Positions 5,230 through 28,944 of a stretch of DNA of 64,000 bases are shown in pieces. The notes under the pieces are model-generated. The model was not told the origin of the DNA, did no database searches, and was given only the letters and a program-made list of their open reading frames with translations. A program made the translations under genes and the position numbers. The DNA comes from Bradyrhizobium zhanjiangense (GTDB taxonomy: Bacteria > Pseudomonadota > Alphaproteobacteria > Rhizobiales > Xanthobacteraceae). The stretch covers positions 2,749,001-2,813,000 of the forward strand of contig NZ_CP022221.1 in the NCBI RefSeq assembly GCF_004114935.1, given 5' to 3'. How positions within the stretch are numbered: position 1 is the first letter of the stretch; each line of letters begins with the position of its first letter.

Positions 5230-5231
5230 CC

Positions 5232-6401
5232 ATGGCCCGGCGTTTCACGGATGCGATCGGCCTGCTGAACGACCTGCTCAACCGCTTCGAGGCAGGAGCC
5301 GCAAGCCCGATCGCCCACCCGGACTACCCCGCCTTCCCATCAGTCGTCGCGGCGGACGCCTTCCTGAAACAGATCAGGGAAGCCGAAAGTGCCGGCGCGG
5401 TCTCCATTCGCTGGGGGCGCGGCGCCAGCCGAGACCAAGTGGCGCACGTGCGGTTGGTCTCGGCGGAGATCTTATACCGATATCTCGGCCGCACCCCGGC
5501 CTCACGCATCGCGGAGCATGCCGCCGTCCGGCTTGTAGCCGGAGTGGCGCTGCACGAGTCGCTGAAGAACAGCGGCTCTCAAATCGCAGAGGTGTGGGCG
5601 CGGGGTAAGACGTGGCACGGATTCGGTTCGTCCGACGTCGACACGCTGCGCCACGCATTCGTTCTCGCCCAGGCGATCCTCGATAACAAGCATCTGGACG
5701 TCGACTACAAAACGTTCTCGCGACGTACGGTGGGGCACAGCAAGATACTCGAGCGCATCGAGGGGGGCGTGGTCCGGCTTTTGAGCGGCATAATGGACTT
5801 TCCGCCTGGCGCCCGCCCCCGCGAGGCACTGCGAGCGATCGGGCTGGAGCGTTTCGCGCCGCCCCTGCTGATCGCGGGCAAGATCGACCTCGACGGAGCC
5901 GATCTTTCCCGGATATCTCCGCATTATCTCGGAATCACTCCCAAGGAGGCTGATCGCGTCCGGTTCCGGGAGCCGCCGGCCTACGTTCTAACGATCGAAA
6001 ACTTCGCAAGCTTCAACCGGCACATCGCCGAGGCGGACCCCGGCCGATTAGGCACGACCATGTATGTCGGCGGGTACCCCTCGCTTGCCACCCAGCAGGC
6101 GCTGCGGACAATCGCAGGATTGGTATCCGAACAGACGCCGATCTTTCATTGGTCGGACATTGATCCGGACGGCACCTGGATCTTCCACACCATCGAGCGC
6201 GCCGTCGATCGACCGATCCGTCCCCACCTCATGAGCGTCGAAGTTGCCGAGCGTTTGGGACAAGTGCCGTTCAAAAAATCGGCACCCGCTCGATGTCCAC
6301 CGGACTCCGGTATCGCAGCTCTGGCAGCGTACCTGGCGAAAGATCGAGCCAAGACGCTCGAGCAGGAAGAACTCGATCCAGTCCTGCCAGAGTTTCATTA
6401 G
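5232..6401 (+). CDS. jetD: Wadjet nuclease JetD (Toprim)
   Basis: Toprim-fold nuclease subunit of Wadjet, related to Spo11/topoisomerase VI subunit A; it cuts the extruded plasmid. The ATG lies 2 bp after the jetC stop. Toprim residues are visible: Glu256 in VLTIENFAS and the D-x-D pair Asp309/Asp311 in HWSDIDPDG. The C-terminal LEQEELDP tail typical of the family is present, so the 389-residue protein seems complete. With jetA-C it makes a tight four-gene operon with no gap larger than 2 bp. Confidence 0.93.
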   Translation: MARRFTDAIGLLNDLLNRFEAGAASPIAHPDYPAFPSVVAADAFLKQIREAESAGAVSIRWGRGASRDQVAHVRLVSAEILYRYLGRTPASRIAEHAAVRLVAGVALHESLKNSGSQIAEVWARGKTWHGFGSSDVDTLRHAFVLAQAILDNKHLDVDYKTFSRRTVGHSKILERIEGGVVRLLSGIMDFPPGARPREALRAIGLERFAPPLLIAGKIDLDGADLSRISPHYLGITPKEADRVRFREPPAYVLTIENFASFNRHIAEADPGRLGTTMYVGGYPSLATQQALRTIAGLVSEQTPIFHWSDIDPDGTWIFHTIERAVDRPIRPHLMSVEVAERLGQVPFKKSAPARCPPDSGIAALAAYLAKDRAKTLEQEELDPVLPEFH

Positions 6402-9490: not shown

Positions 9491-10155
9491 AGACGTCAGC
9501 GGGCATTAAGCGAAAACGCTACTTAGTGCCGAGCCCCGGCCAGTCTGCGAAAACGCGATGCGTGGCGAACTTTGCAACATCGAGCGGAATCCCTGTCGCA
9601 AGACCCTCTCTCACTCGACGAGCAGACCACCTGGAGAAAGCAGCGGCGAGCATTTTGGCTCGCAAAGGCAATTCGGGCAAGGCGCGGGCGCCCGATCTTG
9701 AGTGGTCGTCGCTGTTGACGGCGCGTGCTGTTGTGTTGAGCTCTGTTCGGTTCAAGGCGTTAATGTCCCAAGCCCGACGGCATGACGGCAAAATTCTGGC
9801 AGCCCGGCGAGAAGCGAATTGTTTCAGAATGAGCTCGCAGAAGGTCATTGGCGAGTCCGTTACTTAACGTGAGCGCCAAGGAGATTCTGCTGTACGCGCG
9901 GTGATGACGGCGGCTGTTGCAGAGCTTCCGACGACTTTGCGGACGCCCATGCGGTGATCGTCGCCAATGACGTCCGTATTGTTGTGCTGAGCTGTGTCTG
10001 GTTCAGGACGTCGATGTCCCAAGTCCGACGGCGGCATTCCGAGCGAGGCGCGCGTTCTTCAGGAAACGCTCGCAGTACGTCGTTGGTATGTCGATTGCTT
10101 GAAATGCGGGGTGATCCGTTACGGCCTTCATCGTAGCCCCTGTCTAAGAGTTCAG
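9491..10155. other. intergenic region with two repeat copies (b, c)
   Basis: Region between the divergent oxygenase and NRPS. Two segments resemble each other: about 9720-9790 and about 9965-10040, both with GTTGTG(T/C)TGAGCT and ATGTCCCAAG(C/T)CCGACGG. The second continues to the NRPS start and matches 6430-6640. It presumably holds the NRPS promoter. I see no sigma-54, nod-box or tts-box match. Confidence 0.45.
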
Positions 10156-13100
10156 ATGAAACTTGCTACACCGGTTGGCTCTTGCATCTTTGTTGGTGGT
10201 GGTACGCTAGCTATTAGATGTGCTCAGCTAGTGATGGAGATGGGCCACGTGATCCGGGCGGCGCTGTGTGCCGACGCCATATTCCGCGATTGGGCCGCTC
10301 TCGCCGATATCTTGTGTGTGACGAGCATTGAAGAGCTATCTGCGCTGCTCAACGCCGAGCCGGTCGAGTGGATATTTTCCGTTGCCAATCCGTTCATATT
10401 GCCAGCAGATGTGTTTGGGAAAGCGCGTAGAGGCGCTTTCAATTACCACGACGGTCCGTTGCCGCGATATGCCGGAACTCATGCGACGTCTTGGGCGCTT
10501 CTTGCCCGAGAGACCGAACATGGCATCACGTGGCATCGTATCGATCACGGTGTTGATACTGGTGAGCTGGTCGTCCAACGCCAAGTGTTGATTGCGACGA
10601 GCGATACTGCGCTGACGCTGAATCTCAAATGTTATGAGGCCGCTATCGATGGCTTCCGCGAGCTTCTAACTGGCTTAACAAATGGAGAGCTTAGTGCTCG
10701 TCCGCAAGCGCTAGCGGACCGAAGCTTTTTCCCGAAAGGTCGACGCCCAGATGCTGCGGGCTGTCTGCGATGGGATCGATCCGCACAAGATCTGGAAGCG
10801 ATGACGCGCGCCTTAGACTTTGGCCCGTATCATACCAATCCATTGGGGTTGTCCAAGGCTCTCGTAGGCGATGACGTTGTCGTCGTCAGGCACTTGGAGG
10901 TGACGGCTCGGCGCTCGGGCTTTGCTGCGGGGTCTTTAGTTGAGATCCACCCCAGCCACTGGCGTGTGGCGACAGGGACAGAGGATGTTGATGTTTGGCT
11001 TAGCAGCTTGGATGGTAAGGCTCTGGATGCGCGGGCACTCGCGAGGCGTTCTGATTCCCATGTAGGCGACCGCCTCCCGATTCTGAGCGATGACGAGGCG
11101 CGGAGCATAACGGTTGCGCATGAAATGTTGGCGCCTCGTGAGGGTTTTTGGCGACGGCGGCTTGAACAGTTCAAAACATCCCAGCTTTCCTTTTTGTCGT
11201 CTTCAGTAGCCTTGGCTGCACCTCAATGGCAGTTGAGTTCATGGCGAATTCCAGGTGCTTTGGCTGAGCTGTCTCCCAGTCATCGCACGGAATTCTTGCT
11301 AACGGCTTGGCTCATCTACCTAGCCCGCATCACGGGAGAATTAGAGCTTCAATTGGGATGGACTCCCGCGCCGAGTGGATCGCGAGCGGGGTTGAAAGCG
11401 CTCGAGATGCTTGTCGCTTCTGTTGTGCCGATGGCAATTACCATCGATCTCGACAATGATTTTGCAGAGGCGCGCACGGTGGTGGCGGCCGAATTCGCTC
11501 AGCTGAAGGAGCAGGATAGTTTCGCGCGAGATCTTATCGCGCGCTGCCCAACGTTGCTCGGTATGGAGGCGTTACGATTGCGCCGCCCCTGGCCGGTTGG
11601 CGTTATGCTCACTGTAAGTGGCGAGTCTGCCACTGGTGACCTAGCTTCGAGCCCGACTTCTGAGGCAGCCCTGCCCGGTGAGGCGTTAACATTTGAGGTT
11701 TGCGCTCTAGATGGGAGCTTTCGATGGCACTTTGATGCAAGTCGCTTGGAGCCCAAGCATATCGACCGTATGACCCAGCATTTGCAAAATTTGCTATGTG
11801 CTGTGAAGGCAGATCCGCGGCAGCCGGTGGGGCAGATTGAACTCTTGTCATCCGCTGAGCGCGCGTATCTGCTGGAGGAGCTGAACCGGACGGCATCGGC
11901 CTATCCGTCGGACGTGTGCATCCACGAGCTGTTCGAGGCACAGGTTCGCCGTGCGCCGGACGCGGTGGCGGTGGTCCATGAGAAGGAGCGGCTAAGCTAT
12001 CGCGAGCTGAATGCGCGGGCCAACCGCCTGGCGCATCATCTGATCGCCCTCGGGGTCAGGCCGGACCAGCCGGTGGCGATCTGCGTTGCGCGCAGCGTGG
12101 CGATGGTGGTCGGGCTTTTGGCGATCCTCAAGGCGGGCGGGGCGTACCTGCCGCTGGATCCGGCCTATCCGCCGGCGCGGCTGCGGCAGGTGCTCGACGA
12201 TGCGGCGCCGCGGCTCCTGCTGGCCGATGCGGCGGGACGATCGGCGCTGGGCGACGATGCGCGACGCGATCTGACGGTGGTGGATCTGGCGGCGACGATG
12301 CCGGAATGGACAAATCTGCCGGCGTCGGATCCGGACCCGCGTGCGCTTGGCCTCACCTCACGCCATCTCGCCTATGTGATCTACACCTCCGGATCCACAG
12401 GCACCCCCAAGGGGGTCATGGTCGAGCATCGCGGAGTGGTGCGTCTGGTGGCGGAGAACGATTTCGTCGAGATCTCGCCGCAGGACGTTTTTCTCAACGC
12501 TTCCTCGCCGACATTCGATGCGACCACGTTCGAAGTCTGGGGAGCCTTGGCGAAGGGCGCCAGTGTTGTGCTCTATCCTGAATGCTATCTCTCGACGGCA
12601 ACGCTGGCCCGGATCATCCAAGACCATGGCATCACTATCGCTTGGATGACTGCGCGGTTGTTCGACGTCTATGTCGGGGAGGGGCGGAGCACCAGTGGGC
12701 TGCAGCAACTGCTGGTCGGGGGCGAAGAGGTCTCAGCCAGTTCCATCAGAGCATGTCAGAAGCGACATCCGACGCTGCGAATCTCAAATGGCTACGGCCC
12801 GACCGAGAACACCACCTTCAGTCTCTGCTACCCGGTGCCTGCTGGCTTCGATGGCCAGCAACGGGTGCCACTGGGACGACCAATCCGGAATTCGGTGGTC
12901 TATCTGCTGGACGGTCATGGTGCGCCGGTTCCGTTTGGCGCGGTGGGAGAGCTTTACGTCGGCGGGGCGGGGGTGGCGCGCGGCTATTTGAACCGGCCCG
13001 AGCTGACCGCGGAGCGGTTCATCGCCAGTCCCTTTGTGGACGGCGACCGGCTGTACCGCACCGGCGATCTGGCGCGCTACCTGCCGGACGGCAATCTGGA

Positions 13101-14070
13101 GTTTTTGGGCCGCAACGACGACCAGGTGAAGATCCGCGGCTTCCGGATCGAGCCGGGCGAGATCGCGGCGCGGCTTTGCGAGCACCCGTTCGTGCGCGAG
13201 GCGGTGGTGGTGGCGCACGAGGGCCCCGGCGGCGAGCAGCGTCTTGTCGCCTATGTGGTGTGCGCGCCGGACGCAGCTTCGAACGGGCTGGAGGGAAGCG
13301 AGCTTGCCGGCGCCTTGCGCGCCCACATAAGTGCACACCTGCCGGAGTACATGGTGCCATCGGCGTTCGTGCGGCTGGCGGCGCTGCCGCTGACGGTGAA
13401 TGGCAAGCTCGACCGCAAGGCGCTGGCTGCGCCGGACGATGAGGCGTATGCGCGCGCCGCCTATGAGCCGCCGCAAGGCGAGATCGAGATCACGCTGGCA
13501 CAGATCTGGGCCGAGCTGCTCGGTGTGGAGCGGGTCGGACGGCACGACGACTTCTTTGCGCTCGGCGGGCACTCGCTATTGGCGGTGCAACTGATCGAGC
13601 GTTTGCGGCGGCGGTCGCTGGGGTTGAGGTGCGCACGCTGTTCGCCAGGCCGGTGCTGGCCGATCAGGCCGCAAGCCTGGGCCGTCATCAGGAGGTGGCG
13701 GTCCCGGCCAATCGGATCACCGAACAGAGTACGGCGATCACGCCAGAGATGGTGCCGCTCATTGAGCTGGCGCAGGGCGAGATCGACCGGATCATCGCCA
13801 CAGTGCCCGGCGGGGTCGGCAACATCCAGGACATTTATGGCTTGTCGCCGCTGCAGGACGGCATCCTGTTCCATCATCTGTTGGCGACAAAGGGCGATCC
13901 GTACCTGCTGGTATCGCAGATGGCGTTTGCCGACCGTGGCGTGTTGGACCGCTATCTTGCCGCGGTCCAGCGGGTGGTGGACCGGCACGACATTCTGCGC
14001 ACCTCGTTCGTCTGGGAGGGGCTGTCGCGTCCGGCGCAGGTGGTGTGGCGCCACGCACCGCTGGAGGTGA
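10156..14070 (+). CDS. NRPS fragment 1: formyltransferase, A1, T1
   Basis: Loading module. The start at ATG 10156 ([12 protein letters not shown]) begins a methionyl-tRNA-formyltransferase-like fold with catalytic Asn96 and His98 ([12 protein letters not shown]) and Asp134 (HGVDTGE), as in LgrA of linear gramicidin, so the first residue should be N-formylated from 10-formyl-tetrahydrofolate. About 240 residues then resemble the second half of a condensation domain without HHxxxDG. A1 has [11 protein letters not shown] and pocket residues D-A-F-W-L-G-G-T-F, close to known Val codes. T1 has GGHSL. True coding ends near 13620, where a lost G shifts the frame; the remaining 150 codons to the stop at 14070 are out of frame. 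Confidence 0.85.
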
Positions 14071-14504
14071 GCGAGGTCGAGCTGGACGGGTCTGCTGGTC
14101 CTGGCGCCGCGCAGCTTAAGGATCGGTTTGATCCGCGCCAGCACCGCATCGATCTTGGCCGAGCGCCCTTGTTGCGGTTTGTGATTGCGCGCGAGCCCGG
14201 CCATGGGCGCTGGCTGCTGTTGGAGCTGCAGCATCATCTGATCGGGGATCACACGACACTGGAGGTGATGCGTGCCGAGGTCCAGGCTGTGCTGGAGGGA
14301 CGCGAGCACGAGCTGAGCGCGCCACAGCCGTTCCGCAATCTGGTGGCGCAGACGCATCTCGGCGGTGATGCCAAGGCGGATGAAGCGTTCTTCCGGGGTG
14401 GCTGGCCGACATCGACGAGCCGAGCACGCCGTTCGGCTTGCGCGAGGTGCGCGGCGACGGCAGCGGGGTTCGAGAGGCGCAGCGGATGCTGCCGCAGCAG
14501 CTGA
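13629..14504 (+). CDS. NRPS fragment 2: first half of C2
   Basis: N-terminal lobe of the condensation domain of module 2. It carries HHLLATKGD (13872-13898), which fits the HH[I/L]xxxxGD signature of dual epimerase/condensation domains, and the condensation motif HHLIGDH (from 14232). In-frame coding ends at about 14396, where CCGGGG should be CCGGGGG as at 20893. The next 140 bases (14397-14536, [12 protein letters not shown]...) are read in yet another frame that has no open reading frame of its own. As it stands this piece would not be translated alone. Confidence 0.75.
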
Positions 14505-16242
14505 ACGCGCGGCTGCGCAGCCAGGCGCGACGGCTGGGGTGAGCCTGGCGAGCCTGTGCCATCTGGCCTGGGGGCAGGTGGTGGCGCGCAGCAGCGGCCG
14601 CGAGCAGGTGGTGTTCGGCACGGTGCTGTTCGGCCGCATGCAGGGGGGTGCGGGTGGCGACCGCGCGATGGGGCTGTTCATCAACACGCTGCCGCTGCGG
14701 CTTGATCTTGATGGGACCGCGATCGAAGCGAGCGTGCGAACCACGCACGCCCGGCTGGCCGAGCTTTTGGCGCACGAGCAGGCCTCGCTGGTGCTGGCGC
14801 AACGCTGCAGCGGCGTTGCGGCGCCGGCGCCGCTGTTCAGTTCGCTGTTGAACTACCGCCACAACACCGCGGCGGTCGCCACCGCAACCGATGACAGTCT
14901 GGTGGGCGTGGAATGGCTGGGCGGGGAGGAGCGCACCAATTATCCGCTGACCTTGTCGGTGGAGGATTTTGGCGAGGCGCTCGGTCTGACGGCGCAGGTG
15001 GCGGAGCCTCTCTCGGCGGATCGGATCTGCGGCTACATGCAGCGGGCGCTCGAGCAGCTGGCGGAGGCGCTGGAGCATGCGCCGAGCACGCCGGTGCGCG
15101 CGCTGGACATCCTGCCAGCCGCCGAGCGCGCCTATCTGCTGGCGGAGCTGAACCGGACGGCGGCGGCCTATCCGTCGGACGTGTGCATCCACGAGCTGTT
15201 CGAGGCACAGGTTCGCCGTGCGCCGGACGCGGTGGCGGTGGTCCATGAGGAGGAGCGGCTAAGCTATCGCGAGCTCAATGCGCACGCCAACCGCCTGGCG
15301 CATCATCTGATCGCCCTCGGGGTCAGGCCGGACCAGCCGGTGGCGATCTGCGTTGCGCGCAGTGTGGCGATGGTGGTCGGGCTTTTGGCGATCCTCAAGG
15401 CGGGCGGGGCGTACCTGCCGCTGGACCCGGCCTATCCGCCGGCGCGGCTGCAGCAGGTGCTCGACGATGCGGCGCCGCGAGTGCTGCTGGCCGATGCAGC
15501 GGGGCGATCGGCGCTGGGCGACGATGCGCGACGCGATCTGACGGTGGTGGATCTGGCGGCGACGATGCCGGAATGGGCAAATCTGCCGGCGTCGGATCCG
15601 GACCCGCGTGCGCTCGGCCTCACCTCACGCCATCTCGCCTATGTGATCTACACCTCCGGATCCACCGGCACGCCCAAGGGGGTCATGGTCGAGCATCGCG
15701 GCTTGGTCAATCTCAGCTTGGCTCAGATCGGGCTTTTTGGCGTTTGTTGCAACAGCCGCGTGGTGCAGTTCGCCTCCTTCGGTTTTGATGCAAGCGCCTC
15801 GGAGCTTGTTATGGCGTTTGGTTCGGGAGCCGCATTGCATTTGCCTGCGGATGAGCTCCGTCAAGCGAGTAACAAGCTATCGGATTATCTGCGAAACGAA
15901 GCCATCACGCACGCGACGCTGCCTCCAGCCTTGCTTCAGGGAAGCCAGAAGCTGGAAGCCTTGGGATCGCAAGTTCTCATTCTTGCTGGAGAGCTGCCGA
16001 AGGCAGAACTCATCCGGAGTCTGGCTCCAGCATCCATTATCAATGCTTATGGACCTACCGAAGCAACAGTTTGTGCGGCGACCTGGAGTTGCCCGATGGG
16101 TTTGATGGGGCCATCGTCCCGATTGGCCGCCCGATTGCGAACACGCGCGTGTATCTGCTGGATGATCATGGCGGGCTGGTGCCGTTCGGTGCGGTGGGGG
16201 AGCTCTGCATTGGCGGGGCGGGGGTGGCGCGCGGCTATTTGA
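14365..16242 (+). CDS. NRPS fragment 3: second half of C2 and most of A2
   Basis: Real coding in this frame starts near 14540 ([13 protein letters not shown]), after a lost G in the run 14536-14539, and ends near 16092, where CCC should be CCCC (compare 25808 onward in module 5). It holds the C-terminal lobe of C2 and A2 up to motif A5. A2 motif [11 protein letters not shown] is at about 15650. Pocket residues D-A-S-T-I-A-A-V-C are near the Tyr code DASTVAAVCK. The core is almost identical in DNA to that of A5. Confidence 0.78.
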
Positions 16243-17756
16243 ACCGGCCCGAGCTGACCGCGGAGCGGTTCATCGCCAGTCCCTTTGTGGACGGCGACCG
16301 GCTGTACCGCACCGGCGATCTGGCGCGCTACCTGCCGGACGGCAATCTGGAGTTTTTGGGCCGCAACGACGACCAGGTGAAGATCCGCGGCTTCCGGATC
16401 GAGCCGGGCGAGATCGCGGCGCGGCTTTGCGAGCACCCGTTCGTGCGCGAGGCGGTGGTGGTGGCGCACGAGGGCCCCGGCGGCGAGCAGCGTCTTGTCG
16501 CCTATGTGGTGTGCGCGCCGGACGCAGCTTCGAACGGGCTGGAGGGAAGCGAGCTTGCCGGCGCCTTGCGCGCCCACATAAGTGCACACCTGCCGGAGTA
16601 CATGGTGCCATCGGCGTTCGTGCGGCTGGCGGCGCTGCCGCTGACGGTGAATGGCAAGCTCGACCGCAAGGCGCTGGCTGCGCCGGACGATGAGGCGTAT
16701 GCGCGCGCCGCCTATGAGCCGCCGCAAGGCGAGATCGAGATCACGCTGGCACAGATCTGGGCCGAGCTGCTCGGTGTGGAGCGGGTCGGACGGCACGACG
16801 ACTTCTTTGCGCTCGGCGGGCACTCGCTATTGGCGGTGCAACTGATCGAGCGTTTGCGGCGGCGGTCGCTGGGGGTTGAGGTGCGCACGCTGTTCGCCAG
16901 GCCGGTGCTGGCCGATCAGGCCGCAAGCCTGGGCCGTCATCAGGAGGTGGCGGTCCCGGCCAATCGGATCACCGAACAGAGTACGGCGATCACGCCAGAG
17001 ATGGTGCCGCTCATTGAGCTGGCGCAGGGCGAGATCGACCGGATCATCGCCACAGTGCCCGGCGGGGTCGGCAACATCCAGGACATTTATGGCTTGTCGC
17101 CGCTGCAGGACGGCATCCTGTTCCATCATCTGTTGGCGACAAAGGGCGATCCGTACCTGCTGGTATCGCAGATGGCGTTTGCCGACCGTGGCGTGTTGGA
17201 CCGCTATCTTGCCGCGGTCCAGCGGGTGGTGGACCGGCACGACATTCTGCGCACCTCGTTCGTCTGGGAGGGGCTGTCGCGTCCGGCGCAGGTGGTGTGG
17301 CGCCACGCACCGCTGGAGGTGAGCGAGGTCGAGCTGGACGGGTCTGCTGGTCCTGGCGCCGCGCAGCTTAAGGATCGGTTTGATCCGCGCCAGCACCGCA
17401 TCGATCTTGGCCGAGCGCCCTTGTTGCGGTTTGTGATTGCGCGCGAGCCCGGCCATGGGCGCTGGCTGCTGTTGGAGCTGCAGCATCATCTGATCGGGGA
17501 TCACACGACACTGGAGGTGATGCGTGCCGAGGTCCAGGCTGTGCTGGAGGGACGCGAGCACGAGCTGAGCGCGCCACAGCCGTTCCGCAATCTGGTGGCG
17601 CAGACGCATCTCGGCGGTGATGCCAAGGCGGATGAAGCGTTCTTCCGGGGTGGCTGGCCGACATCGACGAGCCGAGTACGCCGTTCGGCTTGCGCGAGGT
17701 GCGCGGCGACGGCAGCGGGGTTCGAGAGGCGCAGCGGATGCTGCCGCAGCAGCTGA
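16071..17756 (+). CDS. NRPS fragment 4: end of A2, T2, first half of C3
   Basis: From about 16095 this frame gives the C-terminal part of A2 ([31 protein letters not shown]), the carrier T2 with GGHSL, and the front of C3 with the dual E/C signature HHLLATKGD and HHLIGDH. It ends at a lost G near 17650 (CCGGGG in place of CCGGGGG). Apart from the frame errors it is nearly identical to the matching part of module 1/2 (from 12900) and module 3/4 (from 19400). Confidence 0.8.
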
Positions 17757-20700
17757 ACGCGCGGCTGCGCAGCCAGGCGCGACGGCTGGGGGTGAGCCTG
17801 GCGAGCCTGTGCCATCTGGCCTGGGGGCAGGTGGTGGCGCGCAGCAGCGGCCGCGAGCAGGTGGTGTTCGGCACGGTGCTGTTCGGCCGCATGCAGGGGG
17901 GTGCGGGTGGCGACCGCGCGATGGGGCTGTTCATCAACACGCTGCCGCTGCGGCTTGATCTTGATGGGACCGCGATCGAAGCGAGCGTGCGAACCACGCA
18001 CGCCCGGCTGGCCGAGCTTTTGGCGCACGAGCAGGCCTCGCTGGTGCTGGCGCAACGCTGCAGCGGCGTTGCGGCGCCGGCGCCGCTGTTCAGTTCGCTG
18101 TTGAACTACCGCCACAACACCGCGGCGGTCGCCACCGCAACCGATGACAGTCTGGTGGGCGTGGAATGGCTGGGCGGGGAGGAGCGCACCAATTATCCGC
18201 TGACCTTGTCGGTGGAGGATTTTGGCGAGGCGCTCGGTCTGACGGCGCAGGTGGCGGAGCCTCTCTCGGCGGATCGGATCTGCGGCTACATGCAGCGGGC
18301 GCTCGAGCAGCTGGCGGAGGCGCTGGAGCATGCGCCGAGCACGCCGGTGCGCGCGCTGGACATCCTGCCAGCCGCCGAGCGCGCCTATCTGCTGGCGGAG
18401 CTGAACCGGACGGCGGCGGCCTATCCGTCGGACGTGTGCATCCACGAGCTGTTCGAGGCACAGGTTCGCCGTGCGCCGGACGCGGTGGCGGTGGTCCATG
18501 AGGAGGAGCGGCTAAGCTATGGCGAGCTCAATGCGCGGGCCAACCGCCTGGCGCATCATCTGATCGCCCTCGGGGTCAGGCCGGACCAGCCGGTGGCGAT
18601 CTGCGTTGCGCGCAGTGTGGCGATGGTGGTCGGGCTTTTGGCGATCCTCAAGGCGGGCGGGGCGTACCTGCCGCTGGACCCGGCCTATCCGCCGGCGCGG
18701 CTGCAGCAGGTGCTCGACGATGCGGCGCCGCGAGTGCTGCTGGCCGATGCAGCGGGGCGATCGGCGCTGGGCGACGATGCGCGACGCGATCTGACGGTGG
18801 TGGATCTGGCGGCGACGATGCCGGAATGGGCAAATCTGCCGGCGTCGGATCCGGACCCGCGTGCGCTCGGCCTCACCTCACGCCATCTCGCCTATGTGAT
18901 CTACACCTCCGGATCCACCGGAGCGCCCAAGGGCGTCATGATTGAGCATGCGAGCACGGTGAACCTGCTGCATTGGAGCGGCGACGTGTTTACGGCATCA
19001 GAGATCAGCCGCACGCTGTTTGCCACCTCGATCAGCTTTGATCTGTCCGTCTATGAGTGCTTCGTTCCGCTTTCGCAAGGAAGCACGCTTTACCTTGTCG
19101 AGAATGCGCTGGCGCTGGCCGAGAGGTCTTTGGATATCTCTTTGATCAACACAGTGCCCTCGGCGATCGCCGCTCTGGTCGACAGAAAAGCAGTGCCGGC
19201 TTCGACCAGCGTCGTCAATTTGGCGGGCGAGTGGCTGACGGCGGAACTGATCGAGAAGATCTTCGCGAGCAGTCGGGTCCAGAAGATTTGTAATCTGTAC
19301 GCGCCTTCTGAAACCACCACGTACTCAACCTGGATCTGCGTGCGAAGGGGGGACGTTGTCGTTGAGACGATTGGCCGTCCGATTGCGAACACGCGCGTGT
19401 ATCTGCTGGACGGTCATGGTGCGCCGGTGCCGTTTGGCGCGGTCGGGGAGCTCTGCATTGGCGGGGCGGGGGTGGCGCGCGGCTATTTGAACCGGCCCGA
19501 GCTGACCGCGGAGCGGTTCATCGCCAGTCCCTTTGTGGACGGCGACCGGCTGTACCGCACCGGCGATCTGGCGCGCTACCTGCCGGACGGCAATCTGGAG
19601 TTTTTGGGCCGCAACGACGACCAGGTGAAGATCCGCGGCTTCCGGATCGAGCCGGGCGAGATCGCGGCGCGGCTTTGCGAGCACCCGTTCGTGCGCGAGG
19701 CGGTGGTGGTGGCGCACGAGGGCCCCGGCGGCGAGCAGCGTCTTGTCGCCTATGTGGTGTGCGCGCCGGACGCAGCTTCGAACGGGCTGGAGGGAAGCGA
19801 GCTTGCCGGCGCCTTGCGCGCCCACATAAGTGCACACCTGCCGGAGTACATGGTGCCATCGGCGTTCGTGCGGCTGGCGGCGCTGCCGCTGACGGTGAAT
19901 GGCAAGCTCGACCGCAAGGCGCTGGCTGCGCCGGACGATGAGGCGTATGCGCGCGCCGCCTATGAGCCGCCGCAAGGCGAGATCGAGATCACGCTGGCAC
20001 AGATCTGGGCCGAGCTGCTCGGTGTGGAGCGGGTCGGACGGCACGACGACTTCTTTGCGCTCGGCGGGCACTCGCTATTGGCGGTGCAACTGATCGAGCG
20101 TTTGCGGCGGCGGTCGCTGGGGGTTGAGGTGCGCACGCTGTTCGCCAGGCCGGTGCTGGCCGATCAGGCCGCAAGCCTGGGCCGTCATCAGGAGGTGGCG
20201 GTCCCGGCCAATCGGATCACCGAACAGAGTACGGCGATCACGCCAGAGATGTTGCCACTCATTGAGCTGGCGCAGGGCGAGATCGACCGGATCATCGCCA
20301 CAGTGCCCGGCGGGGTCGGCAACATCCAGGACATTTATGGCTTGTCGCCGCTGCAGGACGGCATCCTGTTCCATCATCTGTTGGCGACAAAGGGCGATCC
20401 ATACCTGCTGGTATCGCAGATGGCGTTTGCCGACCGTGGCGTGTTGGACCGCTATCTTGCCGCGGTCCAGCGGGTGGTGGACCGGCACGACATTCTGCGC
20501 ACCTCGTTCGTCTGGGAGGGGCTGTCGCGTCCGGCGCAGGTGGTGTGGCGCCACGCACCGCTGGAGGTGAGCGAGGTCGAGCTGGACGGGTCTGCTGGTC
20601 CTGGCGCCGCGCAGCTTAAGGATCGGTTTGATCCGCGCCAGCACCGCATCGATCTTGGCCGAGCGCCCTTGTTGCGGTTTGTGATTGCGCGCGAGCCCGG

Positions 20701-23700
20701 CCATGGGCGCTGGCTGCTGTTGGAGCTGCAGCATCATCTGATCGGGGATCACACGACACTGGAGGTGATGCGTGCCGAGGTCCAGGCTGTGCTGGAGGGA
20801 CGCGAGCACGAGCTGAGCGCGCCACAGCCGTTCCGCAATCTGGTGGCGCAGGCGCGCCTCGGCGGTGATGCCAAGGCGGATGAAGCGTTCTTCCGGGGGT
20901 GGCTGGCCGACATCGACGAGCCGAGTACGCCGTTCGGCTTGCGCGAGGTGCGCGGCGACGGCAGCGGGGTTCGAGAGGCGCAGCGGATGCTGCCGCAGCA
21001 GCTGAACGCGCGGCTGCGCAGCCAGGCGCGACGGCTGGGGGTGAGCCTGGCGAGCCTGTGCCATCTGGCCTGGGGTCAGGTGGTGGCGCGCAGCAGCGGC
21101 CGCGAGCAGGTGGTGTTCGGCACGGTGCTGTTCGGCCGCATGCAGGGGGGTGCGGGTGGCGACCGCGCGATGGGGCTGTTCATCAACACGCTGCCGCTGC
21201 GGCTTGATCTTGATGGGACCGCGATCGAAGCGAGCGTGCGAACCACGCACGCCCGGCTGGCCGAGCTTTTGGCGCACGAGCAGGCCTCGCTGGTGCTGGC
21301 GCAACGCTGCAGCGGCGTTGCGGCGCCGGCGCCGCTGTTCAGTTCGCTGTTGAACTACCGCCACAACACCGCGGCGGTCGCCACCGCAACCGATGACAGT
21401 CTGGTGGGCGTGGAATGGCTGGGCGGGGAGGAGCGCACCAATTATCCGCTGACCTTGTCGGTGGAGGATTTTGGCGAGGCGCTCGGTCTGACGGCGCAGG
21501 TGGCGGAGCCTCTCTCGGCGGATCGGATCTGCGGCTACATGCAGCGGGCGCTCGAGCAGCTGGCGGAGGCGCTGGAGCATGCGCCGAGCACGCCGGTGCG
21601 CGCGCTGGACATCCTGCCAGCCGCCGAGCGCGCCTATCTGCTGGCGGAGCTGAACCGGACGGCGGCGGCCTATCCGTCGGACGTGTGCATCCACGAGCTG
21701 TTCGAGGCACAGGTTCGCCGTGCGCCGGACGCGGTGGCGGTGGTCCATGAGGAGGAGCGGCTAAGCTATCGCGAGCTCAATGCGCACGCCAACCGCCTGG
21801 CGCATCATCTGATCGCCCTCGGGGTCAGGCCGGACCAGCCGGTGGCGATCTGCGTTGCGCGCAGTGTGGCGATGGTGGTCGGGCTTTTGGCGATCCTCAA
21901 GGCGGGCGGGGCGTACCTGCCGCTGGACCCGGCCTATCCCCCGGCGCGGCTGCGGCAGGTTCTCGACGATGCGGCGCCGCGAGTGCTGCTGGCCGATGCC
22001 GCGGGGCGATCGGCGCTGGGCGACGATGCGCGACGCGATCTGACGGTGGTGGATCTGGCGGCGACGATGCCGGAATGGGCAAATCTGCCGGCGTCGGATC
22101 CGGACCCGCGTGCGCTTGGCCTCACCTCACGCCATCTCGCCTATGTGATCTACACCTCCGGATCCATCGGAGCGCCCAAGGGGGCACAGAATGAGCATCG
22201 GGCTATCGTCAATCGCTTGATTTGGATGCAAAACGCCTATGGTCTCAAGGCAACTGATGTCGTGTTGCAGAAGACGCCATTTGGCTTCGATGTCTCGGCC
22301 TGGGAGTTCTTCTGGACCTTGTTTGAAGGGGCGACCCTGGTGCTGGCGCCTCCGGGTACGCACAGAGATCCCGCTGCATTGGTCGACTTGATCATCAGCC
22401 AGCGCATCACGACGGTTCACTTCGTGCCATCCATGCTGGTCAGTTTTATGGATGCGAAGAGTGTTGACCGCTGCACGTCGCTGCGACGAGTTTTATGCAG
22501 CGGCGAGGCGCTCCCTGCCGCCAGTGTGCATAGGGTTCGGCGCCTCTTGCCTTGGACGGGCCTGCACAATCTCTACGGTCCGACGGAAGCTGCGATCGAC
22601 GTGACAGCGTGGAGTTGTCCGGATGAGTTTGATGGCGCTATTGTCCCGATCGGCCGTCCGATCGCGAACACGCGGATCTATCTGCTTGACGGTCATGGTG
22701 CGCCGGTTCCGTTTGGCGCGGTGGGAGAGCTTTACGTCGGCGGGGCGGGGGTGGCGCGCGGCTATTTGAACCGGCCCGAGCTGACCGCGGAGCGGTTCAT
22801 CGCCAGTCCCTTTGTGGACGGCGACCGGCTGTACCGCACCGGCGATCTGGCGCGCTACCTGGCGGACGGCAATCTGGAGTTTTTGGGCCGCAACGACGAC
22901 CAGGTGAAGATCCGCGGCTTCCGGATCGAGCCGGGCGAGATCGCGGCGCGGCTTTGCGAGCACCCGTTCGTGCGCGAGGCGGTGGTGGTGGCGCACGAGG
23001 GCCCCGGCGGCGAGCAGCGTCTTGTCGCCTATGTGGTGTGTGCGCCGGAAGCAGCTTCGAACGGGCTGGAGGGAAGCGAGCTTGCCGGCGCCTTGCGCGC
23101 CCACATAAGTGCACACCTGCCGGAGTACATGGTGCCATCGGCGTTCGTGCGGCTGGCGGCGCTGCCGCTGACGGTGAACGGCAAGCTCGACCGCAAGGCG
23201 CTGGCTGCGCCGGACGATGAGGCGTACGCGCGCGCCGCCTATGAGCCGCCGCAAGGCGAGATCGAGATCACGCTGGCACAGATCTGGGCCGAGCTTCTGG
23301 GTGTGGAGCGGGTCGGACGCCCCGACCACTTCTTTGCGCTCGGCGGGCACTCGCTATTGGCGGTGCAGCTGTTGAGCCGGGTCTCGCAGGCCATTGGCTT
23401 CACACTGCCGCTGACCACGCTGTTTGCCAAACCGGTGCTGGCCGATCTGGCCGCGAGTATCATGGATGAGTTGAGCCGCTCCGGCGCGCAAGATCTGCCA
23501 GCCATTGCGCCGGTGCCGCGTGAAGCGCCGCTTGTGCTGTCGTTTGCGCAGCAGCGGCTGTGGTTTTTGGCGCAGCTGGATCAGAGCAGCACGAATTATC
23601 ACATTCCACTCGGGTGGCGGCTCAAGGGTGGGCTCGACCGCAGCGCCTGGCAGCGTAGCCTGGACCGTGTGTTGGCGCGCCATGAGGCGCTGCGCAGCGT

Positions 23701-26700
23701 GTTTGTCGCGCCGGAGGGCAAGCCCTGGGTGGAGCTGCTGCCGGAGGATGCGGGGCTGCCGGTTGTGGAGCACGATCTGCGGGACAGGCCGGATGCGGAC
23801 GAGGTGCTATTGGGTCTGTGCAGGGAAGAGGCGCGCACGCCGTTCGATCTGGCGCGTGGCCCGCTGATCCGCGGCCGGCTGATCCGGATCTCGGATGAGG
23901 AGCACGTCTTGCTGCTGACGCAGCATCACATTGTCTCGGATGGTTGGTCGCTGGGCGTGCTGGCGCGTGAACTTAGTCAGCTGTACCGGGCGTTCGTGGC
24001 CGGAGAAGGCGATCCGCTGCCGCCGCTTGCAATCCAGTATCCGGACTATGCCGCCTGGCAACGGCAGTGGCTGTCGGGCGAGCGGCTGCAGCGCCAGGCG
24101 CAGTATTGGCGCAGCAATCTGTCCGGCGCGCCGGCCCGTCTGGCGCTGCCGACGGACCGGCCGCGGCCGGCCCAGCAGTCGTTTGCGGGGGCGACGGTCC
24201 CGATCGTCATTGATGCGGAGCTGACGCGGGAGCTGAAGCGGCTGGGCCTGCAGCAAGGCACGACGTTGTTCATGACGGTGCTGGCGGGGTGGGCGGCGGT
24301 GCTGTCGCGTCTGTCGGGACAGGACGATCTTGTGATTGGCGTGCCGAGCGCCAATCGCGGGCACCGCGAGATCGAAGAGCTGATCGGCTTCTTCGTCAAC
24401 ACGCTGGCGCTCCGGCTGGACCTGTCGGGCGAGCCGAGCGTATCGGAGCTGTTGGAGCGGACGCGGCGCACGGTGCTGGCTGCGCAGGAGTATCAGGACC
24501 TGCCGTTTGAGCAGGTGGTGGAGATCATGCAGCCGCCTCGGGCTCTTGATCACACGCCGTTGTTCCAGGTGATGCTGGCCTGGCAGGACAACGCCGCTGG
24601 GACGTTCGACCTTCCCGGGCTGATGGTGGAGGCGGCGGCAGACGGCTTCGATCAGGTCAAGTTCGATCTGGAGCTGAGCCTTGGCGAGCAGGGTGAGGTG
24701 ATCGCTGGGACGCTGGGTTATGCCACGGCGCTGTTTGATCGCGCGACCATCGAGCGGCAGCGGGATTATCTGCTGGCGCTGCTGCGGGCGATGGTTGCCG
24801 ATGCGCAGCAAGCGGTCGGGCGGATTGAGCTGCTGCCGGCTGAGGAGCGCACCTATTTGCTGGAGCAGCTGAACCGGACGGCGGCGGCCTATCCGTCGGA
24901 CGTGTGCATCCACGAGCTGTTCGAGGCACAGGTTCGCCGTGCGCCGGACGCGGTGGCGGTGGTCCATGAGGAGGAGCGGCTAAGCTATCGCGAGCTCAAT
25001 GCGCACGCCAACCGCCTGGCGCATCATCTGATCGCCCTCGGGGTCAGGCCGGACCAGCCGGTGGCGATCTGCGTTGCGCGCAGCGTGGCGATGGTGGTCG
25101 GGCTTTTGGCGATCCTCAAGGCGGGCGGGGCGTACCTGCCGCTGGACCCGGCCTATCCGCCGGCACGGCTGCGGCAGGTTCTCGACGATGCGGCGCCGCG
25201 CGTGCTGCTGGCCGATGCAGCGGGGCGATCGGCGCTGGGCGCCGATGCGCTACGCGATCTGACGGTGGTGGATCTGGCGGCGACGACGCCGGAATGGGCA
25301 AATCTGCCGGCGTCGGATCCGGACCCGCGTGCGCTTGGCCTCACCTCGCGCCATCTCGCCTATGTGATCTACACCTCCGGATCCACCGGCACCCCCAAGG
25401 GGGTCATGGTCGAGCATCGCGGCTTGGTCAATCTCAGCTTGGCTCAGATCGGGCTTTTTGGCGTTTGTTGCAACAGCCGCGTGGTGCAGTTCGCCTCCTT
25501 CGGTTTTGATGCAAGCGCCTCGGAGCTTGTTATGGCGTTTGGTTCGGGAGCCGCATTGCATTTGCCTGCGGATGAGCTCCGTCAAGCGAGTAACAAGCTA
25601 TCGGATTATCTGCGAAGCGAAGCCATCACGCACGCGACGCTGCCTCCAGCCTTGCTTCAGGGAAGCCAGAATCTGGAAGGCTTGGGATCGCAAGTTCTCA
25701 TTCTTGCTGGAGAGCTGCCGAAGGCAGAACTCATCCGGAGTCTGGCTCCAGCATCCATTATCAATGCTTATGGACCTACCGAAGCAACAGTTTGTGCGGC
25801 GACCTGGAGTTGCCCCGATGGGTTTGATGGGGCCATCGTCCCGATTGGCCGCCCGATTGCGAACACGCGCGTGTATCTGCTGGATGATCATGGCGGGCTG
25901 GTGCCGTTCGGTGCGGTGGGAGAGCTTTACATTGGCGGGGCGGGGGTGGCGCGCGGCTACCTGAACCGGCCCGAGCTGACCGCGGAGCGGTTCATCGCCA
26001 GTCCCTTTGTGGACGGCGACCGGCTGTACCGCACCGGCGATCTGGCGCGCTACCTGCCGGACGGCAATCTGGAGTTTTTGGGCCGCAACGACGACCAGGT
26101 GAAGATCCGCGGCTTCCGGATCGAGCCGGGCGAGATCGCGGCGCGGCTTTGCGAGCACCCGTTCGTGCGCGAGGCGGTGGTGGTGGCGCACGAGGGCCCC
26201 GGCGGCGAGCAGCGTCTTGTCGCCTATGTGGTGTGCGCGCCGGAAGCCGCTTCGAACGGGCTGGAGGGAAGCGAGCTTGCCGGCGCCTTGCGCGCCCACA
26301 TAAGTGCGCACCTGCCGGAGTACATGGTGCCATCGGCGTTCGTGCGGCTGGCGGCGCTGCCGCTGACGGTGAACGGCAAGCTCGACCGCAAGGCGCTGGC
26401 TGCGCCGGACGATGAGGCGTATGCGCGCGCCGCCTATGAGCCGCCGCAAGGCGAGATCGAGATCACGCTGGCACAGATCTGGGCCGAGCTGCTCGATGTG
26501 GAGCGGGTCGGACGCCACGACGACTTCTTCGAACTGGGCGGGCACTCACTGCTAGCGGTGCGGCTTCTCAGTCGAGCGCTCGATGCCGGGTTCAAGTTTA
26601 CCGCCGCCGATCTCTTCCAAGCTCCTGTTCTGAAGGAACTTGCATTGAAGGTTCATTTGGAGCCACAGCCCAGTAGTCCGGGAGTGATTTGTGTTCGCGC

Positions 26701-27505
26701 AACCGGATCGCAGCCGCCGCTGTTCTTTGTTCCCACAGGCTTAGGGGATTGTTCCTATATCCTCAACTTGGTGGAGGAAATGGACACGGACTGTCCAATC
26801 TATGGTCTACCGTGGCCTTCTTTCAGTGAAGTTTGTTCACCAACTCTTGAAGCGATAGCCTCGCAAGTCATTCCGGCGATCAGGGAGATACGGTCCCGGG
26901 GTCCATATCGATTTGCTGGATACTCATCAGGCGGAATATTGGCTTACGCCATAGCCGAGCACTTACTGAGCCTCAATGAAACTGTCTCATTTATGGCGTT
27001 CATTGATGTTAGGCTACCCGCAAAGCCAGCCGGCATGACGCCCACCCAGATGGTATGCGAAGTGGTGCTGGAAACTCTTGAACCCCTAGAGGACGAGCAC
27101 TTTAAACTATTAAAGCGCTTTGCACGGCACAGTTCAATTGCTCAACTACTTGCGAAGGCTCATCAAATAGGAGCTATACCTCCGGATCACAATGATGCTT
27201 TGATGTACGAGAGAATTGAGCAGTTTCAAAGGGCGCTGCAGCTATATCGGGCTCCGTCGCTGCCAATTGAGGTACATCAGTTTTACGCGACGGATTCTTC
27301 AGTAAGTTGTCGCGCACGACTAGACAAGAGCTCAATAGCTCCAGAGATGAGCTCGCCGATGCGAGGCTGGGACAGGGTTTTGAGTGCAGCGGCCATTGAT
27401 ACCACACCGATTCCAGGCAATCACGCGACGATGATGAACACTCCAGAAAACCGCAAAGTCCTGGCACGCTTGTTATCAAGAGCCTTAAATAGCTCACCGA
27501 CGTGA
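17690..27505 (+). CDS. NRPS fragment 5: end of C3 to thioesterase
   Basis: Longest intact piece, about 3270 residues: rest of C3, A3-T3, C4-A4-T4, C5-A5-T5 and a thioesterase. Pocket residues: A3 D-L-Y-N-N-A-L-T-Y (Ala-like), A4 D-V-W-H-L-S-L-I-D (the standard Ser code), A5 D-A-S-T-I-A-A-V-C (Tyr-like). C4 keeps the dual E/C signature; C5 is of the ordinary LCL type with HHIVSDGWS (about 23925). A4 has an unusual A3 motif, [10 protein letters not shown]. The TE has GYSSGG with its nucleophile Ser, and NHATMM may hold the catalytic His. Real coding in this frame begins near 17651. No MbtH-like gene lies in the window. Confidence 0.9.
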
Positions 27506-27765: not shown

Positions 27766-28944
27766 TCAGGTTTTTGAATCTATTAGCGAGTAGCTCGTAC
27801 TCCGGCCACCGGCAGCGTCCTTCTTGAGGATGCCGTGACCGACGAGTTCGTCGATGTCCCTCGCGGCGGTAGCCTGGGAGACTTTCGTAAGTTTCGCCCA
27901 TTTCGACGACGTAAGTTTTCCTTCGAATCCCTCGAAGAGGCGATTGAGCACCAGCCGCTGGCGCTCATTAAGTTGCCGTGCTGCGTAAAGGGCCCAGAAG
28001 TCCGCCTTGCGGAGAATGTTGCCGAGAATAGTGTCCGCGCCATCGAAGGCGCGATCCAGGCAGTCGAGGAACCACGTTAGCCAGTCGGTGACGTCGAGAC
28101 TTCCCCTCTGGGTTCTCTCTAGGATGGCGTAGTACTCATTCCTCTCACGGCGGATTTGAGCGGACATGCTGTAGAACCTCTGCGCGCTCTGCTCCGATCT
28201 GGAGAGAGCGAGATCGGCGATGGCGCGTGCTATGCGGCCGTTGCCATCCTCGAAGGGATGGATGGTTACAAACCAGAGGTGCGCAAGCGCAGCTTTCAAA
28301 ACAGGGTCGATGCCGCTGGCGTTGCCGTTGAACCAATCAAGGAATGTCTGCATTTCCTTGTCGAGACGATCGACGGGCGGCGCTTCATAGTGGACACGCT
28401 CGCGTCCAATGGGGCCCGAGACGACCTGCATCGGACCTGTTTCAGCAGTACGCCACGCGCCGACAACAATCTTCCTCATACCGCTTCGCCCAGTGGGGAA
28501 GAGCGCGGCGTGCCACCCGAAGAGACGCTCAGCTGTGAGTTCGGCAGCGTAGTGTTCAGTGGCGTCGAGGATCATTTCCACAACGCCTTCCACATGGCGA
28601 TCCGCCGGAGGGAGGGCGCCGATGTCCATGCCAAGTCGGCGAGCAATGGATGACCGGACTTGGTGGCGATTCAGAACCTCGCCCTCGATCTCACTGGACT
28701 TCACCACGTCTTCAGTGAGGGTCTGGAGAGTTGCCTCGGCTTTGAGGGGGAACCCCAGGCGCTCCATCCGCCCGAGTAGGCGCCCCTGTTTGTGGCGCAC
28801 AGCCACCAAGCGATCGGCAATTTGCTGCAAGTTCCAACGGAAGGTCGGCCACTCCCCCAGTTCGTGAATATAAACCATAATCTCATCATCCTTTGCAGAG
28901 ATTATGCGGCTTAATCTCGTCGTCGGCAAGTCTATTCTCATCAT
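27766..28944 (-). CDS. Fic family protein with C-terminal winged helix
   Basis: Fic-domain AMP- (or other NMP-) transferase. The catalytic motif HPFEDGNGR is complete, and an N-terminal inhibitory helix with SSEIEGE (S/T-x-x-x-E-G class) is present, so activity should be self-restrained. The last about 80 residues (LNERQRLVLNRLFEGF to the end) form a winged-helix DNA-binding domain, as in Fic proteins that regulate their own gene. Starts are possible at 28944 or, better placed behind AAGGATG, at 28878 (MVYIHELGEW). An inverted repeat covers that start. It is probably a chromosomal-type toxin-antitoxin-like or regulatory Fic and not a secreted effector. Confidence 0.88.
   Translation of the reverse strand: MMRIDLPTTRLSRIISAKDDEIMVYIHELGEWPTFRWNLQQIADRLVAVRHKQGRLLGRMERLGFPLKAEATLQTLTEDVVKSSEIEGEVLNRHQVRSSIARRLGMDIGALPPADRHVEGVVEMILDATEHYAAELTAERLFGWHAALFPTGRSGMRKIVVGAWRTAETGPMQVVSGPIGRERVHYEAPPVDRLDKEMQTFLDWFNGNASGIDPVLKAALAHLWFVTIHPFEDGNGRIARAIADLALSRSEQSAQRFYSMSAQIRRERNEYYAILERTQRGSLDVTDWLTWFLDCLDRAFDGADTILGNILRKADFWALYAARQLNERQRLVLNRLFEGFEGKLTSSKWAKLTKVSQATAARDIDELVGHGILKKDAAGGRSTSYSLIDSKT
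28877..28905 (-). promoter_or_regulatory. inverted repeat over the Fic start, possible operator
   Basis: ATAATCTC (28877-28884) and GAGATTAT (28898-28905) form a perfect 8-bp inverted repeat with a 13-bp spacer across the start codon at 28878. A further TAATCTCG half-site is at 28911. A site here could let the Fic winged helix repress its own gene. This is inference from position and symmetry only. Confidence 0.4.

Follow-up and report, generated by a model that had tools for sequence, protein, structure and literature searches.

Homogenised blocks and exchangeable adenylation cores in a rhizobial family of formyl-initiated nonribosomal peptide synthetases

Natural exchange of the adenylation (A) core, a flavodoxin-like subdomain (FSD), has been described in nonribosomal peptide synthetases (NRPSs) such as microcystin McyB, where, as in the arrays reported here, only part of the A core is exchanged while the C-A linker and Asub are kept (PMC8097286, PMC7486941), and the exchange boundaries are diverse over many compound families (Baunach et al. 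2021, PMC8097286). Concerted evolution has been reported for the calcium-dependent lipopeptides, syringopeptin and the rapamycin family, in which A domains and the majority of C domains group by gene cluster (BGC) rather than by position, and internal recombination was proposed (Medema et al. 2014, PMC4256081). In the engineered enduracidin NRPS the swapped FSD is the same unit as the rhizobial core and the rest of the module is likewise untouched, with a guideline of >55% identity between exchanged FSDs (PMC8616955). In another study, partial A-domain swaps gave no visible pyoverdine (PMC7486941). A-core exchange and concerted evolution are each already published, while a report of their combination was not found in the literature searched. 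Laboratory subdomain swapping often fails, and a kind of exchange that peptide engineers find hard seems to take place in nature already; the rhizobial family described below is a natural library of about a dozen very unlike cores.

The window, i.e., the whole stretch of 64,000 nucleotides of a rhizobial genome that was analysed, carries a five-module NRPS near nodC, at 9994-27505 on the + strand, where all features given below also lie. Based on ORFs, stops and Pfam, its architecture reads F-(partial C)-A1-T-C2-A2-T-C3-A3-T-C4-A4-T-C5-A5-T-TE, with AMP-binding, Condensation and PP-binding domains in repeating modules and Thioesterase as the release domain. A formyltransferase (F) domain (10153-11022; PF00551, tblastn) lies within the first ORF and is fused to the N-terminus of the first module. 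It is followed by a partial, apparently degenerate C domain at 11263-11871, which aligns with no more than the second half of its Pfam model (PF00668 positions 244-455, 22 bits vs a cut-off of 30.6), and the thioesterase (PF00975, tblastn) is found at 26645-27502. The reading frame is broken in the assembly examined (ORFs and stops) by five single-base losses in homopolymers: G5 runs account for four, and the other is a C missing from a C run near 16091 inside core 2. Since every lost base is present in a sister module, where the run is complete, the breaks were treated as probable sequencing errors, and the reading of the locus as a pseudogene was rejected. The five breaks are probably long-read errors; one that is common to modules 2 and 3 (near 14394 and 17646) could be a real loss copied between modules, and the breaks may reflect real disruption or phase variation.

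The modules repeat with a period of mainly 3248-3253 bp, in line with the ~3.25 kb noticed in an earlier sequence-only reading of the window. The three stretches that separate consecutive cores from core 1 to core 4 are 98.7-99.1% identical over 2.8 kb in self-BLAST. Sliding 60-bp windows, the check proposed with that reading, showed the five A domains to be 90-100% alike up to ~12400 (matching places 15670, 18920, 22170 and 25390), 23-66% and mostly 30-50% identical for windows starting at 12440-12807, and back to 93-100% from ~12950. The transition thus resolved spans ~90 bp on the left and ~120 bp on the right, so that the predicted sharp borders are present and a smooth fall over the module length is absent. 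The cores lie at 12421-12865, 15688-16116, 18941-19364, 22190-22643 and 25409-25838, within ~50 bp of where they had been placed, and cores 2 and 5, already recognised as near copies, are 99% identical, remain at 96-100% in 60-bp windows, and with their flanks reach 97.6% over 1729 bp (self-BLAST).

Two constant blocks surround the cores. Block 1, comprising the C-A linker and the N-terminal part of A, is found at 11843-12420 (self-BLAST, 60-bp windows), with further copies at 15110-15687, 18363-18940, 21612-22189 and 24833-25408. Block 2, the C-terminal A plus T up to a ten-residue stretch, occupies 12866-13594 and about 16117-16845, 19365-20093, 22644-23372 and 25839-26561. The claim that C, T and the outer parts of A are almost base-identical stood for outer A (90-100%) and for C2, C3 and C4 (99%); it failed for the partial C before A1 and for C5, which belongs to a different class.

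C5 marks a second slot, consisting of the end of T plus C, that alternates between dual epimerising (C/E) and LCL domains. In the window, a dual C/E domain (HHLLATKGD) at 13595-15110 has further copies at about 16846-18362 and 20094-21611, 99% identical to each other, and an LCL domain, marked by a ten-residue stretch, lies at 23373-24832. Slot identity across the family is 0.999 within the same class and locus, 0.851 within the same class between loci, and 0.40-0.41 between classes. The dual C/E N-terminal motif HH[I/L]xxxxGD (taken from PMC1894796) was found in 95 of 155 inter-core segments, those of the window's C2-C4 included, and the slot is predicted to set the epimerisation of the upstream residue; PMC10531924 warns that some E/C domains are idle. 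The slot starts within T, immediately after FFxxGGxS and close to the XUT-III/IV fusion sites of engineered XUT units (PMC12668312), but unlike these it comprises the T end and C only and ends in the C-A linker, so that the next A is excluded.

The exchanged core types differ in their nine-residue substrate codes. Automatic codes failed at some positions (a "?" or a doubtful fourth residue in T2, T3, T4 and T9), and these were read by hand against GrsA landmarks. The amino acids assigned to the codes are predictions: core 1 (type T4, DAFWLGGTF, its W read by hand) is taken to be Val-like, cores 2 and 5 (both T3) aromatic-like, core 3 (T1, DLYNNALTY) Ala-like and core 4 (T5, DVWHLSLID) Ser-like. 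The predicted window peptide would thus be formyl-Val-(aromatic)-Ala-Ser-(aromatic), with residues 1-3 predicted to be D. The best PDB match of the A1-T1 segment was the linear gramicidin synthetase LgrA (6mfz/9be3), with its second module as the best stretch. The window NRPS resembles LgrA in its N-terminal formyltransferase and in a first A domain that is Val-like by code, the first A domain of LgrA being specific for Val. In LgrA, F leads directly into A-T, whereas the window NRPS has a partial C between F and A1, uses dual C/E and LCL domains in later modules, and ends in a thioesterase.

Including the window, 23 related loci from alpha- and beta-rhizobia were retrieved, with 15 of the 22 relatives on conjugative plasmids; neither this spread nor the T/C slot had been seen in the sequence-only reading. 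In tblastn at E<=1e-5, F had matches of 48-83% identity in 17 of the other 22 loci; several are partial, and that of BLCT2 covers only 24 residues. Whole arrays, the largest with 16 modules, are mosaic, with borders that hardly differ in position, and share a core alphabet across genera. Modules were located via their flanks, so that those with foreign flanks are under-counted; in a less flank-dependent survey, three of the 22 family loci (RhT1473, P. sabiae and S. chiapasense) were without a uniform left block, and only two of the eight rhizobial loci among 51 comparison loci had both blocks at >=0.90. DNA-level typing of 180 cores in the 23 loci gave 14 types that are ~23% identical in protein, following a smaller typing of 85 cores in 14 loci with 12 types. 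It replaced a protein-level typing with 20 types, a number due to eight same-type cores being read out of frame and to some cores with frame breaks. Representatives of 13 types are 18-33% identical, mostly well below the enduracidin FSD guideline, except for two pairs (T10/T11 and T12/T14) at 63-66% that could be merged. Each of the seven main types is present in 7 to 19 of the 23 loci.

The constant blocks are ~98-99% identical within a locus and 80-88% between loci; the cores are not homogenised in this way. In a comparison covering 157 of the 180 modules, left-block identity was 0.983 for the same locus and different core types (507 pairs) vs 0.805 for different loci and the same type (1625 pairs), while core identity was 0.298 vs 0.848, respectively. 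Homogenisation within loci thus holds for the constant blocks and for same-class C slots (at silent sites as assessed for the left block), and not for the cores. Among the module pairs that passed an 85% outer-flank filter, as many as 498 showed a sharp border on the left and as many as 520 on the right. Core and scaffold trees are incongruent: with 87 representatives, the core tree requires 11 type changes and 80 locus changes, whereas 62 and 31, respectively, are required in the flank tree. Some dependence between flank and core remains, since left-block nearest neighbours share the core type in 64.0 of 157 cases vs 21.6 after shuffling. Individual crossover points could not be placed.

The left border falls within ~3-5 residues of GrsA K205 (Crusemann) and the right border as close to I352 (Kries), the sites named in PMC7486941; the GrsA numbering used here agrees with the residues named there. 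Compared with the natural exchanges of PMC8097286, the rhizobial arrays are whole-array mosaics with near-fixed borders and an alphabet common across genera, and compared with the concerted evolution of PMC4256081, homogenisation halts at slots with sharp edges: the A cores group by type, and the C domains fall into two classes that are each homogenised inside a locus.

Exchange of the substrate-selecting core by recombination, as the sequence-only reading had proposed, is well supported by the tree incongruence and by near-identical strains that carry different core orders, as found in the comparison with other strains suggested there. The plasmids of Bradyrhizobium septentrionale 162S2 and 1S1 are 95-100% identical per 60-bp window over 6.55 kb, with the exception of core 3, which is T2 in one and T1 in the other, a clean replacement in these assemblies. 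We consider it likely that homologous recombination through the constant blocks, preserving two exchangeable slots, explains the array family. The formyl-initiated NRPSs are repeat arrays of two constant blocks (the C-A linker with N-terminal A, and C-terminal A with most of T) and two slots, of which the A core would pick the side chain and the T end plus C would decide whether the preceding residue is epimerised. By gene conversion and unequal crossover, recombination in the blocks would keep these near-identical within a locus, alter module number, and move cores and C cassettes between modules, and conjugative plasmids would carry both between strains. As cores of different types are too unlike to interconvert, tracts would stop at the core edges, and the old alphabet, with roughly a dozen types, would persist.

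The history derived from the sequence-only reading, a recent duplication of one module followed by the insertion of foreign cores into its copies, fits the near-identity of modules within a locus and some cores that look younger than their flanks. Window core 4, for example, shares 95.9% identity with core 2 of P. sabiae, where the flanks reach 84.9/87.0%, and 94.5% with core 7 of B. septentrionale B1S1b, where they reach 78.6/88.0%, a modest contrast. Same-type cores and flanks nevertheless diverge in step between loci, unlike what recent import from outside predicts (medians 84.3% vs 83.8%, r = 0.80, 2044 of 2064 pairs; the core is >8 points less alike than its flanks in 100 of the 2044 and more alike in 51), and the seven main types recur across loci. 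Recent duplication and import is therefore not the whole story, and we regard it as unlikely; the co-divergence implies that the core set is old and that the blocks are homogenised within each locus.

A site-specific recombinase or retroelement dedicated to swapping core cassettes could account for borders that, pooled over loci, are confined to a narrow stretch, and recombinases, IS elements or group II intron reverse transcriptases do occur near several loci. However, the six window borders tested have no inverted repeat in common, cassette edges vary by type (in Bradyrhizobium, bases specific to T1 start at about -30), conserved protein motifs fall at the borders, and an uncounted inspection of the annotation tables revealed no recombinase gene common to the loci, making such a dedicated mechanism quite improbable.

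Repeat-assembly artefacts as the source of core orders and near-identity are very improbable. The five single-base losses in the window, and five cores without an open frame in three other loci, do point that way; on the other side, two separately assembled locus pairs agree in core order (the S. medicae strains ml2 and ml60 match over a single stretch of 36.7 kb at 99.98%, and the second array of B. septentrionale 1S1 matches that of Bradyrhizobium 2S1 over 42.4 kb, again in one piece, at 99.9%), the family includes annotated single genes of 20-42 kb, and PMC8374602 gives PacBio draft genomes for 1S1, at 93-fold, and 162S2. Purifying selection without exchange, with only the cores free to vary, is barely credible: the blocks do hold domain interfaces and catalytic motifs (A3 and A7-A10), but left-block third codon positions are 0.99 identical within loci and 0.63 between them, where block protein is 0.79, which refutes protein constraint alone for this block.

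In this family, cores with different substrate codes share one scaffold at nearly fixed borders, and a second slot would carry chirality; what working swaps depend on, scaffold compatibility or the placing of the border, thereby becomes directly testable. For nitrogen-fixing symbionts, the family also points to a class of predicted formyl peptides that is highly variable; among the open-access literature listed, no paper describing it was recognised, and no product or activity of any member was found in the literature examined. Tentatively, the arrays might form a natural combinatorial peptide system on rhizobial plasmids, with standard blocks, two plug-in slots and freely interchangeable ~23%-identical cores, in which reshuffling would be fast enough to give different formylated peptides within one species, and selection would favour products specific to a strain during competition or interaction with legumes; the logic would resemble that of type I restriction specificity subunits, whose recognition domains are reshuffled.

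Searches of the window for the Nod-box core (0 matches) and with Rfam at gathering thresholds gave no matches. Near the NRPS start, tts-box-like sites were absent, and the four present in the window, two of them exact, lie at 37368 and beyond.

The NRPS at 9994-27505 (+) comprises a formyltransferase, a partial C domain, an A-T unit, four C-A-T modules and a thioesterase. With nodC at genome position 2824468 (~11 kb beyond the window) and nifH ~0.6 Mb off, it lies near nodulation genes of a rhizobial genome, a single contig of 9.34 Mb; its nearest relatives are found in Bradyrhizobium. The sequence-only reading had described modules that repeat every ~3.25 kb and vary only in the adenylation core, and this was borne out, with a period of mainly 3248-3253 bp and sliding 60-bp windows that are 90-100% identical outside the core vs 23-66% (mostly 30-50%) inside it. 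The core borders are sharp (edges ~90 bp and ~120 bp wide at 60-bp resolution), and core 5 almost duplicates core 2, as had been noticed. The near-identity claimed for the C domains holds for C2, C3 and C4 (99% identical) but not for C5, which belongs to another class and is bounded by edges as sharp as those of the cores. Five indels break the reading frame, each removing one base from a G5 or C run that a sister module has intact, and one is common to modules 2 and 3.

Related DNA was retrieved by megablast from 98 plasmid records for window 9900-14100 and from 121 for 17690-26600, the latter set (76 typed conjugative) comprising Bradyrhizobium (36), Rhizobium (28), Sinorhizobium (24), and Mesorhizobium, Paraburkholderia, Mycetohabitans, Streptomyces and others. 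The family is patchy, since among 296 genomes from the window's family the constant block right of the core (C-terminal A and most of T) was matched at ≥82% identity in only three same-genus genomes (G105, G277, G024) besides the window's own. For comparison we used the window and 22 plasmid loci picked by similarity to it (plasmids typed as 15 conjugative, 5 mobilizable and 2 non-mobilizable), some stretches being cut at their ends; a formyltransferase was matched in 17 and a thioesterase in 16 of these 22. The largest array, B2S1a, has 16 modules, and the longest gene annotated as a single unit spans 41.6 kb. The same transporter-like set (ABC ATPase, FtsX-like permease, RND adaptor and a hypothetical protein) precedes the array on three Bradyrhizobium plasmids (L012, L013, L055).

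The 180 A cores of these 23 loci, extracted by way of their flanks, sort into 14 types at the DNA level. Seven predominate: T1 (code DLYNNALTY; 41 copies, 19 loci), T2 (DAWLLGNVV; 32, 14), T3 (DA[W/S]TIAAVC; 26, 17), T4 (DAFWLGGTF; 21, 12), T5 (DVWHLSLID; 19, 14), T6 (DANNIGEVG; 18, 8) and T7 (DFWNIGMVH; 11, 7), the others having 1-3 copies each; manual reading filled in some code positions that the script could not resolve. By the code tables, T1-T7 presumably resemble Ala, Leu, aromatic, Val, Ser, an unassigned polar residue and Thr, respectively, and the rarer types Glu/Gln, Pro, Gly and Asp; the specificities and the D/L pattern of the family are predictions from codes and motifs. Type representatives share 18-66% protein identity (median 23%, 13 types), and the window's order is T4-T3-T1-T5-T3. 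Five cores in three relatives (Smed60p4, L061; B162S2a, L013; Smel21A, L058) lack an open frame, which may reflect error or pseudogenisation of single cassettes.

The borders were profiled by pairing unlike cores from the same locus and keeping pairs whose outer flanks passed an 85% filter, which left up to 498 pairs for the left border and up to 520 for the right. Per 10 bases, mismatch on the left is 0-3% up to -30, 7% from -30 to 0, 12% over core bases 1-10 and 46-73% beyond; on the right it runs from -80 as 66, 39, 12, 21, 11, 7 and 8%, with 0-5% from -10 onward. In the protein, the left edge falls at (V/I/N/A)EH after A3 and the right at PIGRPI after A5. GrsA numbering, in agreement with the residues named in PMC7486941 and with the GrsA stretch quoted in PMC8616955, puts the edges no more than ~3 (left) and ~5 (right) residues from K205 and I352, the engineering boundaries of PMC7486941.

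Between these borders the cores and their scaffold follow different relationships. Setting aside two loci that nearly duplicate others, and any module whose flanks were incomplete, left 157 of the 180 modules. In these, identity within a locus between different core types vs between loci within one type was 0.983 vs 0.805 for the left block (C-A linker and N-terminal A), 0.993 vs 0.877 for the right block and 0.298 vs 0.848 for the core. The nearest neighbour by core shared type in 156/157 and locus in 79.7/157 (ties as fractions), and by left block it shared locus in 107.8/157 (shuffled 7.3) and type in 64.0/157 (shuffled 21.6). In trees built from 87 representatives, 11 changes of type and 80 of locus are required on the core tree, against 62 and 31, respectively, on the flank tree. 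Constraint does not account for the identity, since left-block third codon positions are 0.99 identical within loci but 0.63 between them, where the block protein is 0.79 identical. Because modules had been found through their flanks, the comparison was redone by using a single A domain as tblastn query and restricting the count to pairs of unlike cores; protein identity was ≥0.92 (left) and ≥0.94 (right) in 19/22 family loci, the exceptions being RhT1473, P. sabiae and S. chiapasense (left block 0.65, 0.37 and 0.35). In 51 other loci of the genome collection, mostly Pseudomonas, the median was 0.40 for the left block, 0.71 for the right block and 0.24 for the core, and both blocks reached ≥0.90 in only two, both Bradyrhizobium, while six further rhizobial loci fell below 0.90 on at least one side; uniform blocks are thus usual in the chosen arrays but not universal in rhizobial relatives.

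Core orders do differ between strains, a comparison that the sequence-only reading had suggested: Bradyrhizobium 2S1 (2-4-2-4-2-1-4-3-2-3-5-2-1-5-1-4), B. septentrionale 162S2 (4-2-2-4-3-1-1) and 1S1 (4-2-1-4-3-4-1-1-4, read to the record end) have a common 5' part at 99.6-99.7% identity. From core 2 to core 4, the sole replacement between 162S2 and 1S1 is core 3 (T2 or T1), the remaining base differences being two far from that core (-1268, -443), seven bordering it on the left (-30 to -15) and three within the right block (+506 to +510); elsewhere the two arrays diverge by an extra module and by differences in core 4. This replacement is consistent with conversion from a sister module, since each version of core 3 is 99.8% like another same-type core in its own array. 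Arrays can also be stable, with identical orders in B1S1b and B2S1b and in S. medicae ml2 and ml60. The core exchange proposed in the sequence-only reading is well supported, but recent module duplication with import of cores explains the history only in part. Same-type cores between loci have a median identity of 84.3% and their own flanks 83.8% (r = 0.80; 2044 of 2064 pairs, 20 with one array-end module being left out), so most cores diverged together with their scaffolds; cores were >8 points more alike than flanks in 51 pairs and >8 points less alike in 100. The core alphabet is ancestral, with blocks re-homogenised in every lineage, and transfer of single cores between lineages supplements this pattern and does not dominate it. 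Certain cores do appear to have moved independently of their scaffold: window core 4 is 95.9% identical to core 2 of P. sabiae, while the flanks reach 84.9 and 87.0%, though this contrast is modest.

A second slot, the end of T plus C, holds two C classes that are 0.40-0.41 identical to each other, with constant DNA on either side. The dual C/E motif HH[I/L]xxxxGD, defined in PMC1894796, occurs in 95 of 155 inter-core segments, an LCL-type first motif in 59 and neither in one. In the window this slot starts just past a 14-residue stretch of the T domain, close to the FFxxGGxS fusion sites of XUT units (PMC12668312), and ends in the C-A linker. C class partly depends on the preceding core, being LCL after 13/15 Ser-type and 6/7 Thr-type cores and dual after 26/31 T2 cores (near-duplicate loci included).

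A-core exchange (PMC8097286, PMC9205934) and concerted evolution of modules (PMC4256081) are already published. Searches of the open-access literature yielded no report of the two combined, of two slots with nearly fixed borders, of such broad interchange among cores ~23% identical, or of strain-level reshuffling in nitrogen-fixing symbionts. A plasmid survey finding BGCs on 58% of Rhizobiales plasmids (PMC10434180) does not describe this family in its accessible part.

Elsewhere in the window, a Wadjet-type defence operon JetA-JetB-JetC-JetD (1-6401, +; PADLOC best matches JetA1/B1/C1/D1) has its JetA cut by the window start, and a Fic-domain protein (27766-28944, -) that matches SoFic, and XopAC weakly, adjoins the NRPS. 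A NodU-related carbamoyltransferase (33299-34921, +), whose N-terminal domain is matched only in its last part, is possibly a changed or truncated copy. At 37368-40292 (+), an exact match (at 37368) to a tts-box-like pattern lies 365 bp ahead of a GH28 polygalacturonase gene and a pectinesterase gene; a second exact match lies at 45862-45879 (-), and a YopJ-family acetyltransferase gene at 48941-50164.
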